Assembly (NCBI GenBank): GCA_028286865.1
Contig: JAQBQU010000001.1
Span: 1 to 40,200, forward strand
DNA: 40,200 bases
Origin: Candidatus Kaiserbacteria bacterium
GTDB lineage: Bacteria; Patescibacteriota; Minisyncoccia; Phycocordibacterales; UBA2100
Reading direction: 5' to 3'
Made by a program: the position numbers and the translations under genes. The notes beneath the pieces are model-generated. The model saw nothing but the letters and a program-made list of their open reading frames with translations. It made no database searches and was not told the DNA's origin. This document shows, piece after piece, positions 11,162 to 17,959 of this stretch (position 1 is the first letter of the stretch; every line of letters begins with the position of its first letter).

Positions 11162-13969
11162 ATGCCTCCATCGATGAGGGAGCGGCCGCGTGCCGCATCC
11201 GAAAGTAAATTCACCACTCCCGAAGAGGAGCTCGCATATCTGCGCGAACAGGTCGCCCAAAAAGAAAAAGCACTCGAGGTCCAATCGAGCGATTTTGAAC
11301 GCGAACGCATCGCAAAGCGGGAAGTGCGCGAATATGCCGAGGAGTCCCCAGCGACCGTCCTCCATGAGACGATCATCATGCCCGAGCACGAGACCGTCAG
11401 GCAGCTTTTGAAGCTTGAGCCGGAGACGCATGATGTGCAGCTCGACGGGCTCCTTAATATCGTCGCATCCCGCGGCATCCGCAACGCCCTTTCGGTGGCG
11501 GCGCGGATGAAGAATCCCCATCTCGAGGACGATTTTCACCGCGCACTCGTGCGCTATGTCTCCGAAGGGCTCCCGCGCAAAGGTATTCCCGCGCCGGAAA
11601 AGGTGATGCACTCGCTCGAACTCGTGCTCTTCGAGGTACAGCCGCAAGCGCAGGGAGAAGGGACCAAGGAAGAATCGCGCCAAGCAAAGCTCGAACAGAT
11701 ACTCTCATCTTCAGATCAATTGTACGCGGGGCTCTTGTCATTCGTGGGCCACAGCGAAGGCTTTTCTCTTGAGATAGCCGTTCCCGAAGGCTCGGAAGCG
11801 GCGGCACTCTACCTTGCGGTCCCGCACTCGAAAAAAGTGCTCGCAGAACACCTCATCTCCTCGATCTTCCCCAACGCCCGTATCTCTGAGAGCCGGGGAG
11901 ATTACAATATATTCAACTATCAGGGCGCTCATGCGGCCGCATATGCTTCGCTCGCGCATCATCCGGCGTATCCGCTCAAAACAGCAGAAATGTTCGAACT
12001 CGACCCGATGAATGTGCTCCTCTCTGCGTTCTCAAAGCTCGCCAAGCATGGCGAAGGCGCGGCGATCCAGATCACGGTCGGCAATGAAGGGGATCGGTAC
12101 AATCATCATTACAAAAAGATCCTCCGCGAGGTAGAAAAAGGGAAGCCCTTGCACGAAGCATTCAAAGTACCGGAGACGGAGCTGGGCGAAGCGCTCCACG
12201 GCATTGCAAAAAGTCTTTTTTCTTCCAAGGTCCAGAAAGAATACGACAAGGAGCATGACATGAAGCGGCAGGGCGACCAGGTGGCGACCGAAGCGATCGG
12301 GCGCAAGATAAAGACGCGTATCGCCCCCGTTTCGATCCGGCTCATTGCATCCGGGCCTTCGGGAGCGCGTGCCGAAGAGATATTGAACAATCTCATTGCA
12401 CCTTTCTCGCAGTTCGATGACCCGAAGGGTAATGCCTTGGTCTTCAAGCGTGTCTCGAGCTGGAGTATCGCGGGCTTCTTGCGCGATTACACATACCGCT
12501 CATTTGAATCCTCGATCGCCATGCCGCTCTCCCTTGGCGAGATCACCGCGATGTATCACTTTACCGCCGAGCGCGTGACCACCTCGCGCGAACTGAAGCG
12601 GAATTTCTCGAAGCAATCTCCCGCGCCGGTCGGTATCGGGGGCGAGGGGATCGTGATCGGCATCAACCACTTTGGAGGAGACGAGACGCCGGTGCATTTC
12701 GCCCCCGCGGACCGCTTGCGCCATACGTACGTGATAGGACAGACTGGTACCGGTAAGACCGGGCTCATCAAGAATATGATCCTGCAGGATATTCAAAATG
12801 GCGAAGGTGTGTGCTTCATCGATCCGCACGGCAACGATATCGAGGACATCCTCGCAGCGATACCCCCTGAACGGGCCAAAGACGTGATCTATTTCGATCC
12901 CGCATATACCAAGCGCCCGATGGGCCTCAATATGCTCGAATACGATCAGTCGCGCCCCGAAATGAAGACGTTCGTCATCGATGAGGTGTACGGCATCTTC
13001 CGCAAGCTTTATTCCGACGTGCCCGAAGCATTCGGTCCGATGTTCGAACAGTATTACCGCAACGCGGTGCAGCTCGTGATAGAAGACCCGGAATCGGGAT
13101 GCACCTTCGTAGAGGTCCCGCGCGTATTCGCGGACGCCGCATTCCGCAAGCTCAAACTTTCGAAATGCAAAAATCCGATAGTCGTACAATTTTGGAAGAA
13201 GATCGCCGAAGCGGCGGGAGGGGATGCGGCGCTCGAGAACATCGTGCCGTATATTTCGAGCAAGTTCGATGTGTTCCTCTCTAATGACATTATGCGTCCG
13301 ATCGTTTCCCAAGAGAGATCGGCTTTCAATTTCCGCGAGATCATGGACGGAAAGAAGATATTTCTCGCCAATCTCTCCAAGGGCCGCTTGGGCGACCGCA
13401 ACACATCACTGCTCGGTCTTGTCCTTGTGTCCAAGTTCCTCCAGGCGGCATTCTCACGTGCCGACACCCGCGAAGTGCTCCCGACCTTCTATATGTATAT
13501 CGACGAATTCCAGAACTTCGCGACACCTTCGATCTCGACCATTCTCTCGGAAGCGCGTAAGTACAAGCTGAGCCTCACGGTCGCGCATCAATATATCGCT
13601 CAGCTCGAAGACGACATCCGCGACTCGGTCATCGGCAACGTCGGCACCAAGATATCGATGCGCATCGGTACCACCGACGCGGAATTCCTGGAAAAGCAGT
13701 TCGCGCCCACATTCAATGCGCAGGATCTCGAAAATCTTCCGAATCGCACCGGTGTCGCGGCACTTTTGGTCAATGGTGTACCGGCGAAGCCGTTCACGAT
13801 CGAGACGGTGAACCTTCCGAAGATCGACTACACCCGACTCGATGAAATGAAGAAGCTCTCATATGAGAAGTACGGCCGCGATAGGGCGGAAGTCGAGGCT
13901 GATGTGGACCGCAAATTCGCCCCCGTCCCGCGTCCCGTCATCGACCTGAGTGCCGCAACAGGTCTCTAG
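11162..13969 (+). CDS. VirD4/TraG/DUF87-like ATPase (type IV secretion coupling-protein family)
   Basis: Walker A HTYVIGQTGTGKTGLIKNMILQD, GEGVCFIDPHGNDIEDIL, FYMYIDEFQNFATPSISTILSEARKYKLSLTVAHQYIAQL. Confidence 0.88.
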   Translation: MPPSMRERPRAASESKFTTPEEELAYLREQVAQKEKALEVQSSDFERERIAKREVREYAEESPATVLHETIIMPEHETVRQLLKLEPETHDVQLDGLLNIVASRGIRNALSVAARMKNPHLEDDFHRALVRYVSEGLPRKGIPAPEKVMHSLELVLFEVQPQAQGEGTKEESRQAKLEQILSSSDQLYAGLLSFVGHSEGFSLEIAVPEGSEAAALYLAVPHSKKVLAEHLISSIFPNARISESRGDYNIFNYQGAHAAAYASLAHHPAYPLKTAEMFELDPMNVLLSAFSKLAKHGEGAAIQITVGNEGDRYNHHYKKILREVEKGKPLHEAFKVPETELGEALHGIAKSLFSSKVQKEYDKEHDMKRQGDQVATEAIGRKIKTRIAPVSIRLIASGPSGARAEEILNNLIAPFSQFDDPKGNALVFKRVSSWSIAGFLRDYTYRSFESSIAMPLSLGEITAMYHFTAERVTTSRELKRNFSKQSPAPVGIGGEGIVIGINHFGGDETPVHFAPADRLRHTYVIGQTGTGKTGLIKNMILQDIQNGEGVCFIDPHGNDIEDILAAIPPERAKDVIYFDPAYTKRPMGLNMLEYDQSRPEMKTFVIDEVYGIFRKLYSDVPEAFGPMFEQYYRNAVQLVIEDPESGCTFVEVPRVFADAAFRKLKLSKCKNPIVVQFWKKIAEAAGGDAALENIVPYISSKFDVFLSNDIMRPIVSQERSAFNFREIMDGKKIFLANLSKGRLGDRNTSLLGLVLVSKFLQAAFSRADTREVLPTFYMYIDEFQNFATPSISTILSEARKYKLSLTVAHQYIAQLEDDIRDSVIGNVGTKISMRIGTTDAEFLEKQFAPTFNAQDLENLPNRTGVAALLVNGVPAKPFTIETVNLPKIDYTRLDEMKKLSYEKYGRDRAEVEADVDRKFAPVPRPVIDLSAATGL

Positions 13970-15112: not shown

Positions 15113-15715
15113 ATGCCACATCCTAAAAAAGAACGCACATTCGTCATTATTAAGCCCGACGGCGTCCAGCGCGGTCTCGTAGGCGAGATCATCCAGCGCT
15201 ATGAACGCACCGGTCTCAAGCTCGTAGGTATGCGCTTTGGCGTCGCCGATGAGAAGAAGTTCTGGGTCCATTACAACAAAGACGATGCCTGGTTCCTCAA
15301 GAAGGGGACCAAGATCGCAGAAGATAAGAAGGCCAACGGTCTTCCATCTGATAAGGAGCCGCTCGAATACGGGAAGGACATCATCCGACAGCTCGTGAAG
15401 TTCATGACCTCCGGTCCTGTGCTCATGATGGTCTGGGAAGGTAACCAGGCGGCGCTCGTCGTGAAGAAGCTCACCGGGGAAACCGAGCCTTCGACATCTG
15501 ACGTCGGAACGATCCGCGGCGACTTCACGCTCGACTCGTACAACATAGCTGCCGTCGACGACCGCGCGGTACGCAATCTCATCCACTGCTCAGAATCCGC
15601 TGAAGAAGCGGCTCGCGAGATCGCGATCTGGTTCACCGATGCCGAAATGACCGAATATCGCCACATCAACGAGCAGATCCTCTACGACGTGAACCTCGAC
15701 GGTATACTCGAATAA
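15113..15715 (+). CDS. ndk: Nucleoside diphosphate kinase with internal insertions
   Basis: ERTFVIIKPDGVQRGLVGEIIQRYERTGLKLVGM, FMTSGPVLMMVWEG, GTIRGDF, active-site-like NLIHCSES. Confidence 0.93.
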   Translation: MPHPKKERTFVIIKPDGVQRGLVGEIIQRYERTGLKLVGMRFGVADEKKFWVHYNKDDAWFLKKGTKIAEDKKANGLPSDKEPLEYGKDIIRQLVKFMTSGPVLMMVWEGNQAALVVKKLTGETEPSTSDVGTIRGDFTLDSYNIAAVDDRAVRNLIHCSESAEEAAREIAIWFTDAEMTEYRHINEQILYDVNLDGILE

Positions 15716-15725
15716 GACCCTCGCT

Positions 15726-16022
15726 ATGGAGTACATCCATCAAACGACGTACGGACATGCCGGCGGATTCCATACCGCAAAACCCATCATGGCGATCGAC
15801 CGCGCAAAGGGTCATATCTACGATATGAAGAATGGCCGGCCGGATATGGCGAAGCCGCTCTACGCTATCCGCGATAATCATGCCTTTGCGACCTCATTTC
15901 ATCCCGGAGGCGAAAGTCAGCACGCGGTCTTCGAGATCCGCGGCGACAAAGTGCACACCACGGTGAATCACCCCGAACACAATCCCGCATCTCCCGCGTT
16001 CGAGATACGCATGCAGACATAA
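15726..16022 (+). CDS. Hypothetical protein (98 aa)
   Basis: ORF directly after ndk; His-rich, no recognised family. Confidence 0.5.
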   Translation: MEYIHQTTYGHAGGFHTAKPIMAIDRAKGHIYDMKNGRPDMAKPLYAIRDNHAFATSFHPGGESQHAVFEIRGDKVHTTVNHPEHNPASPAFEIRMQT

Positions 16023-16060
16023 TTCACATGCGCTTCAGTCGCAGAGGTGTATACTCATTT

Positions 16061-16213
16061 GTAGGCGGTCAGTACTAATACCTGCTTGGCTCAATCAGGG
16101 TCGCCCACATTGCTGTATGCCTTGGTATACATGCTGCGGCAGCCCACCTGGTCCTCAAACCCAGGCTTGCCGTACTACCGCTTACCGAACGATCCGCCAT
16201 CCGGCGGATTTTT
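16061..16213 (+). ncRNA. Candidate structured small RNA (6S-like or unclassified) with intrinsic terminator
   Basis: TATACT at 16050-16055; terminal helix GTAGGCGGTCAGTAC (16061-16075) / GTACTACCGCTTAC (16172-16185), about 14 bp with one bulge; internal hairpin GTATGC-CTTG-GTATAC; terminator ATCCGCC-ATCC-GGCGGAT-TTTT (16192-16213). No ORF. Confidence 0.6.
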
Positions 16214-16229: not shown

Positions 16230-16592
16230 ATGGCTTTGAAGATATTCCTCTCCGGCGTCGCCGTGTTCTGCGCTTTGGCCATTGTCTATGTATATAGTTT
16301 ATACGCAGGCTTCTTTTTTTCGATCTGGTGGTGGGATATTCCGATGCATATCGGCGGCGGCGTTCTCGCGGGCCTCATCGGCGCATGGTTTTCGATCATA
16401 TTCAGCGGTCGAGTGTCGCTTCTTTCGATCTTTGCGGGCGTCATAGTACTTGGCGTAGCTGTGGAGGCACTCGAATACGCACTCGGCTTCACATATTCAC
16501 CGTTCATGAGCTATCCCGTCGATACCGCTAAGGACTTAGTAGATGATCTCGTGGGCGGTGTCATTGTAGGCTATCTGCTCGCGCGTGTATGA
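16230..16592 (+). CDS. Small multi-TM membrane protein (DUF2238/VanZ-like flavour)
   Basis: Four hydrophobic segments; DIPMHIGGGVLAG, EALEYALG, DTAKDLVDDLVGGVIVGYLL. Confidence 0.7.
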   Translation: MALKIFLSGVAVFCALAIVYVYSLYAGFFFSIWWWDIPMHIGGGVLAGLIGAWFSIIFSGRVSLLSIFAGVIVLGVAVEALEYALGFTYSPFMSYPVDTAKDLVDDLVGGVIVGYLLARV

Positions 16593-17959
16593 CATCAAAG
16601 ATCACATTCCACGGCGGAGCAGGCACGGTGACGGGCGCAAATTTTTTACTTGAGACCGGCGAGAAGAAAATACTCGTGGATTGCGGCGCGCTCGAGCGCG
16701 AACATCACACGGGCGACGTGTGCGACACCACCAATGCGCTGCCGTTCCCGTATGATCCCGCGTCGATCGATGTGCTCATCGTGACGCATGCACATGCTGA
16801 TCATATCGGGCGCATCCCGAAGCTCGTACGCGACGGTTTTCGCGGTGCCATTATCTCTACGCCGGCGACGCGTGACCTGGCTCAGATCATGTTCGCCGAT
16901 GCGCTCAATATCATGTCGCTCAATGAGGGCCTCCACCACTGCGACCCGCTCTATTCGCAGGAAGATATCGACGCGACGGTGCCGCTCTGGCAGGTACACG
17001 AATACCACGAACATTTTGAAGTAGGGGATACGCGCGTGGAATTTTCTGATGCGGGACACATCTTGGGTTCCGCTCTTGTGAAGTTCACCCGCGGCGGTCG
17101 CACACTGATGTTCACGGGAGACCTGGGCAATACTCCCGAGCCACTTCTCAATGCCACCGAGAGCCCCGTGGGAGCACATTACATCGTAATGGAGAGCGTG
17201 TACGGCGATCGCGTGCACGAAGGCAGGGAAGGGCGCAAAGAGCGCCTACGCCAGGCGATCGAAGATACCCGCGAGCGCAAGGGCGTACTGCTCATTCCGT
17301 CATTCTCTATCGAGCGCACGCAGATACTCCTCTCCGAGATCAATGAAATGGTCGAAAGCGGGGCGCTCAAGCCGCTCCCCATCTATCTCGATGCGCCGCT
17401 CGCGAATAAAGTGACGCAGGTGTTCCGGGAGTACAGCACAATACTCAATCCCGATGTACGGCAGCATTTTGAAAGCGGTGACGACCCGTTCACCTTTAAG
17501 GGGCTCACCATCGTGGCGCATACCGGCGAATCGCGGGCACTGCATACGAAGCCGGATCCGAAGGTCATCATCGCGGGGGCCGGCATGTCGGTCGGCGGCC
17601 GCATCCGCGCGCACGAAAAGGCATATCTTGGTAATGAGAATACGACGGTGCTCTTCGTGGGATACCAGGCACCGGGGAGTTTGGGTCGCCGTCTCTACGA
17701 CGGAGAGAAAAAAGTGCGCATCGACGATGAGTGGATCCGCGTACGCGCGCAGATCGATATGCTCACCGGATATTCCGGTCATGCCGATCGCGATCAGCTT
17801 CTGGATTTCATCGAACAGGCGGGGGAGTCACTCGAAAAAGTATTTATTACGATGGGTGAACCGAAAGCATCGCTCTTTTTAGCGCAACGCGCAAAAGATT
17901 TTCTCGGTGTGAACGCTATTGTCCCCGAAAAAGATCAGGTCGTTGAGATCGATCTCTGA
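16589..17959 (+). CDS. MBL-fold beta-CASP RNA metallohydrolase
   Basis: THAHADHIGRIPKL, SDAGHILGSALV, FTGDLGN, IIAGAGMSVGGRIRAHEKAYLGNENTTVLFVGYQAPGSLGR, GYSGHADRDQLLDFI. Confidence 0.93.
   Translation: MTSKITFHGGAGTVTGANFLLETGEKKILVDCGALEREHHTGDVCDTTNALPFPYDPASIDVLIVTHAHADHIGRIPKLVRDGFRGAIISTPATRDLAQIMFADALNIMSLNEGLHHCDPLYSQEDIDATVPLWQVHEYHEHFEVGDTRVEFSDAGHILGSALVKFTRGGRTLMFTGDLGNTPEPLLNATESPVGAHYIVMESVYGDRVHEGREGRKERLRQAIEDTRERKGVLLIPSFSIERTQILLSEINEMVESGALKPLPIYLDAPLANKVTQVFREYSTILNPDVRQHFESGDDPFTFKGLTIVAHTGESRALHTKPDPKVIIAGAGMSVGGRIRAHEKAYLGNENTTVLFVGYQAPGSLGRRLYDGEKKVRIDDEWIRVRAQIDMLTGYSGHADRDQLLDFIEQAGESLEKVFITMGEPKASLFLAQRAKDFLGVNAIVPEKDQVVEIDL

Follow-up and report, generated by a model that had tools for sequence, protein, structure and literature searches.

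Among the RNAs that regulate bacterial RNA polymerase, 6S RNA is the best known; it holds the enzyme by mimicking an open promoter. Known 6S RNAs (SsrS, RF00013) measure about 160 nt and more, that of Aquifex (~160 nt) being one of the shortest cited (PMC9130861). The Ms1 RNA of Actinobacteria has a 6S-like architecture but is bound by core RNA polymerase (PMC9130861), and the 4.5S RNA of the signal recognition particle (SRP; RF00169, RF01854) is a further housekeeping RNA of similar length. In the open-access papers searched, 6S RNA did not occur together with Candidate Phyla Radiation, Parcubacteria or Saccharibacteria; for Patescibacteria, the combination returned a single paper, on the mitochondrial SRP.

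Judged from comparative sequence analysis, the feature described here is, with a probability of roughly 0.92, ssrS, the gene for 6S RNA, in a genome of Candidatus Kaiserbacteria (Patescibacteria). Within the known 6S family, the RNA forms a very short branch that has diverged strongly and is missed by the Rfam model in this lineage. Shared with 6S RNA are the closing helix, a central bubble whose 3' strand forms a hairpin, the terminal stem with GGG/CCC at its base, the CCCACCUGG...CCAGG motif, and the single-copy gene; moreover, orthologues in other classes match RF00013. Differences from E. coli 6S RNA concern length (183 nt compared to a fold of about 125 nt here) and the terminal stem, which is shorter here, while the genus and order of the window go undetected by RF00013 and the gene follows ndk instead of lying between zapA and fau. 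Ms1 is alike in its 6S-like architecture and unlike in that it binds core polymerase, has no Rfam match here, and belongs to another phylum. The 4.5S RNA is alike in length and housekeeping role, but the SRP models are without a match here and the Ffh M domain is undetected in the lineage.

Locus, fold and gene context

The RNA and its surroundings were delimited in the window, i.e., the whole stretch of 40,200 nt that was analysed, and comprise the following parts (all on the + strand).

16050..16055, +, -10 box TATACT (read from the sequence)
16061..16185, +, 6S-like RNA (putative ssrS homologue), closing-helix 5' end to 3' end (fold, match of model R2, covariation)
16061..16075, +, closing helix, 5' strand, with bulged C16070 (minimum-energy fold; 11/11 modelled pairs with two-sided changes across the order)
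16076..16097, +, central bubble, 5' strand (UAAUACCUGCUUGGCUCAAUCA), predicted pRNA template (register to RF00013 and E. coli U44)
16098..16145, +, terminal stem consisting of GGGU/GCCC, internal loop, GCC/GGC and apical hairpin (fold, covariation)
16121-16124, +, CUUG loop of the apical hairpin, which spans 16114-16131
16143-16149, +, 6S CCCACCU motif
16146..16171, +, central bubble, 3' strand (unchanged among 20 genus sequences; motif shared with the RF00013 consensus)
16147-16151 / 16161-16165, +, P4 hairpin CCUGG / CCAGG on the 3' strand of the bubble
16172..16185, +, closing helix, 3' strand (fold, covariation)
16191..16213 (stem 16191-16210), +, intrinsic terminator, GATCCGCC/GGCGGATT plus T run (terminator scan)
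15113..15715, +, ndk (nucleoside diphosphate kinase), conserved upstream neighbour (PF00334)
16589..17959, +, beta-CASP/RMMBL metallo-beta-lactamase ribonuclease, frequent downstream neighbour (PF10996, PF07521)

A preceding reading of the DNA without database searches (the sequence-only reading) had proposed a 14-bp closing helix, which was identical to the minimum-energy fold (16061-16069 and 16071-16075 with 16172-16185). Further local elements named there, namely a TATACT five bases ahead of this helix, a CUUG-capped hairpin, a local CCUGG..CCAGG hairpin (P4), and a terminator after the RNA, were likewise recovered. With the terminator included, the fold energy of the RNA was better than that of 200/200 shuffles (z -4.0); for the RNA without the terminator, z was -2.8 and 4/200 shuffles were equally good. 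The promoter scan gave no two-hexamer site and no -35-like box was found upstream of the RNA; in many relatives the -10 box takes the form TGnTATACT. The RNA measures 125 nt from helix to helix and about 150 nt with the terminator, and the primary transcript probably reads on through the terminator to about position 16213.

Both flanking signals recur in relatives. A -10 hexamer with at least 5/6 agreement was located immediately upstream in 22/23 genus loci (5% of control windows) and in 22/26 order loci (19% of control windows), and a terminator-like hairpin followed downstream in 18/23 genus and 18/26 order loci (controls, 4%). On the same strand, ndk was found upstream in all 23 genus loci and in 21 of the 26 order loci (44/49 together), and the beta-CASP ribonuclease was found downstream in 20/26 order loci. 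The gene is thus predicted to be a stand-alone transcription unit with a conserved -10 box and terminator, and nearly all genomes contained one match each; an RNA gene that is nearly universal, present once per genome and independent of its neighbours has the appearance expected of a housekeeping RNA. Between ndk and the RNA, the window carries a 98-aa open reading frame (15726-16022, +) without a Pfam match, which was present in just 2/23 genus loci, including the window's own. Further upstream (11162-13969, +) lies the gene of a 935-aa protein that carries coupling-protein domains of the TraG/TrwB type (type IV secretion).

Conservation and covariation across Patescibacteria

Relatives across the genus were retrieved by DNA search, and 20 sequences were aligned (alignment A1, made without structure). 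The blocks ACCUGCU(U)GG and CCCACCUGG...CCAGGCU were invariant in all 20, and compensatory changes backed every helix except for the invariant P4. Homologues were then counted with two covariance models: R1, built from the genus sequences, and R2, built from 76 sequences of order-level relatives only and without any Rfam input. R1 found a homologue in 49/52 genomes of the genus (Ca. Kaiserbacteria), with one copy each, and a match in 66/197 genomes of the order. R2 matched 124/148 order genomes and 116/287 genomes sampled across the phylum; in the window, its match spanned 16062-16183 with 85.9 bits. The order-level hits shared the core GGGAGYCUYAUAU-[hairpin]-UGCGGRCACCCACCUAG...CUAGG; most were preceded by a -10 box and followed by a terminator.

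Two-sided changes were observed for 15/32 pairs in the genus alignment and for 26/32 pairs in the order alignment (76 sequences), and likewise for 26/32 pairs at the phylum level. In the order alignment, 91.7% of the cells were paired compared to 64.5% in shuffles; since the order and phylum alignments were fitted to the model, this pairing is somewhat inflated, and the same signal was present in A1. None of 500 shuffles reached either the observed pairing or the observed covariation score, and sliding the helix partners against each other lowered the covariation score of the order alignment from 0.69 to 0.13 or less; the phylum alignment responded alike. The feature is consequently a real, conserved structured RNA across Patescibacteria. 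The look for conservation and covariation in relatives that the sequence-only reading had suggested returned both, and the comparative evidence for helices, promoter and terminator supports its view of the locus as a gene for a structured RNA, equipped with its own -10 box and terminator.

Relationship to the 6S family

The Rfam scan of the window, also suggested beforehand, returned nothing relevant at gathering or permissive thresholds; for RF00013 there was no match at the gathering score or even at E ≤ 10. Searching the 31 genus and order genomes with RF00013 did not identify a homologue of this RNA and gave one chance-level match elsewhere. A tmRNA was rejected, as ARAGORN found none in the window. 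Across 145 genomes of the phylum, RF00013 gave 14 matches, of which 13 were located in other classes at the same place and on the same strand as the R2 matches. Twelve of these overlapped R2 matches on the same strand (G283, G257, G249, G293, G286, G295, G332, G387, G318, G264, G336, and G262), and for the thirteenth (G340, L185) R2 agreed on the place when scored directly. The best score (G283, L175; 60.2 bits; E. coli 6S, 139.8 bits) exceeded the gathering score of 46.4, and the 12 other orthologues scored below this cut-off. Where cmscan of the loci fetched with R2 reported a match at the R2 place, that match was 6S (L148, L153, L154, L168).

The chance that a match of ~150 nt coincides with one particular site in a ~1 Mb genome was estimated at roughly one in several thousand per genome. 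Because R2 was independent of Rfam and these odds are low, the coincidence of the R2 and RF00013 matches is decisive for homology. The agreement extends to the register: in the RF00013 consensus, the terminal stem has GGG...CCC at its base, and CCCACCUgg..CaGG comes next on the bubble's 3' strand; the helices found here and the motif CCCACCUGG...CCAGG on that strand align with these elements, and E. coli 6S RNA carries CACCU at the corresponding place. Neither R2 nor R3 matched E. coli ssrS, i.e., there is no direct sequence bridge; since E. coli 6S RNA is unmatched by R3 and the window is unscored by RF00013, the link to 6S RNA runs through the other classes of Patescibacteria. This indirect link and the shortness of the RNA count against the assignment. 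Homology with accepted 6S RNA was thus found in place, strand and register, together with the covarying succession of closing helix, central bubble and terminal stem. The 6S-like layout noted in the sequence-only reading stands, and its label "unclassified" is superseded, as the RF00013 matches in other Patescibacteria fall on homologues of this RNA. One weak RF00013 match (G252:C7:45254-45408, -; 23.4 bits) was without an R2 match, and is either a chance match or a second, different type of 6S RNA.

An RNA specific to Patescibacteria that has an unrelated function and resembles 6S RNA in layout only would explain why the window sequence scores nothing in Rfam, but 13/14 RF00013 matches in the phylum, one of them above the curated cut-off, coincide with homologues in place and strand, which makes this reading very improbable. 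A divergent SRP (4.5S) RNA was considered because SRP RNA is undetected in the lineage, and a single-copy, lineage-wide small RNA in genomes without a detected SRP RNA would suit this identity. RF00169 and RF01854 gave no match in the window or the lineage, and the orthologues match RF00013 and not the SRP models. In addition, the Ffh M domain (PF02978) was absent from genome G000 and 30 relatives (31/31) with 14/14 controls positive, so that no partner is apparent. In this order, the signal recognition particle seems to be lost, which argues against an SRP RNA here; this identity was rejected and is the least credible of those considered.

Proposed mechanism and copy number

By analogy with 6S RNA, we infer that this RNA binds RNA polymerase and serves as a template for pRNA. 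Transcription from its own -10 promoter to the intrinsic terminator would yield an RNA of about 125-150 nt, in which closing helix, bubble and terminal stem would imitate an open promoter, so that the RNA polymerase holoenzyme with the housekeeping sigma factor would be bound and kept off promoters. Upon the return of nucleotides, the polymerase would template a short pRNA on the 5' strand of the bubble, starting around 16083-16087 and proceeding toward the closing helix; this position is obtained by carrying the pRNA start of E. coli 6S RNA (U44) over via the RF00013 register. The bubble would then refold, with the 3'-strand hairpin CCUGG/CCAGG and base pairing between the 5' and 3' strands both assisting, and the polymerase would be released.

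Two long-range pairings had been proposed in the sequence-only reading. The pairing GCUUGG/CCAGGC is possible on paper and fits a collapse of the bubble after pRNA synthesis; Rfam's own pairing of the 5' and 3' bubble strands has a somewhat different register. In line with such a collapse, bubble strands of the same species paired better than species-swapped strands (mean -5.6 vs -3.6 kcal/mol; 0/2000 permutations) in a test that includes the extension of the closing helix, and when the test was restricted to the P4 arm the support was modest (14/2000; order-only sequences). Within the genus, the bubble bases hardly vary and are uninformative for alternative pairing. As for the second pairing (UCAGG/CCUGG), both strands are already engaged in other conserved helices, i.e., the GGG of the terminal stem and P4.

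It is conceivable, though unlikely, that the RNA represents a compact 6S lineage with a reduced mechanism and the smallest known 6S-type RNA, operating either by a bubble with two stable states, where CCUG/CUAG on the 5' strand would compete with the 3'-strand hairpin, or by Ms1-like core binding. A 6S-related RNA that stores core RNA polymerase in the manner of actinobacterial Ms1, without blocking the sigma holoenzyme, is considerably less probable still. Ms1 has the 6S architecture and differs in binding core polymerase (PMC9130861), and neither sequence nor structure by itself tells the two binding modes apart; however, among families of this kind the orthologues match RF00013 only, the bubble motif of 6S RNA is in register, and Ms1 has been described from Actinobacteria.

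If the assignment as 6S RNA is right, organisms with tiny genomes, whose signal recognition particle is seemingly lost in this order, have kept a single-copy 6S RNA across classes, and the RNA would be one of the smallest natural 6S RNAs available for work on mechanism and structure. The alignment also allows for an improved Rfam model. In some genomes of the order, two copies lay on one strand, separated by a few hundred bases (G088:C47 at 2386 and 2850, L073; G111:C10 at 7121 and 6925; G099:C2 at 9880 and 10171), possibly a duplication of the 6S-1/6S-2 type.
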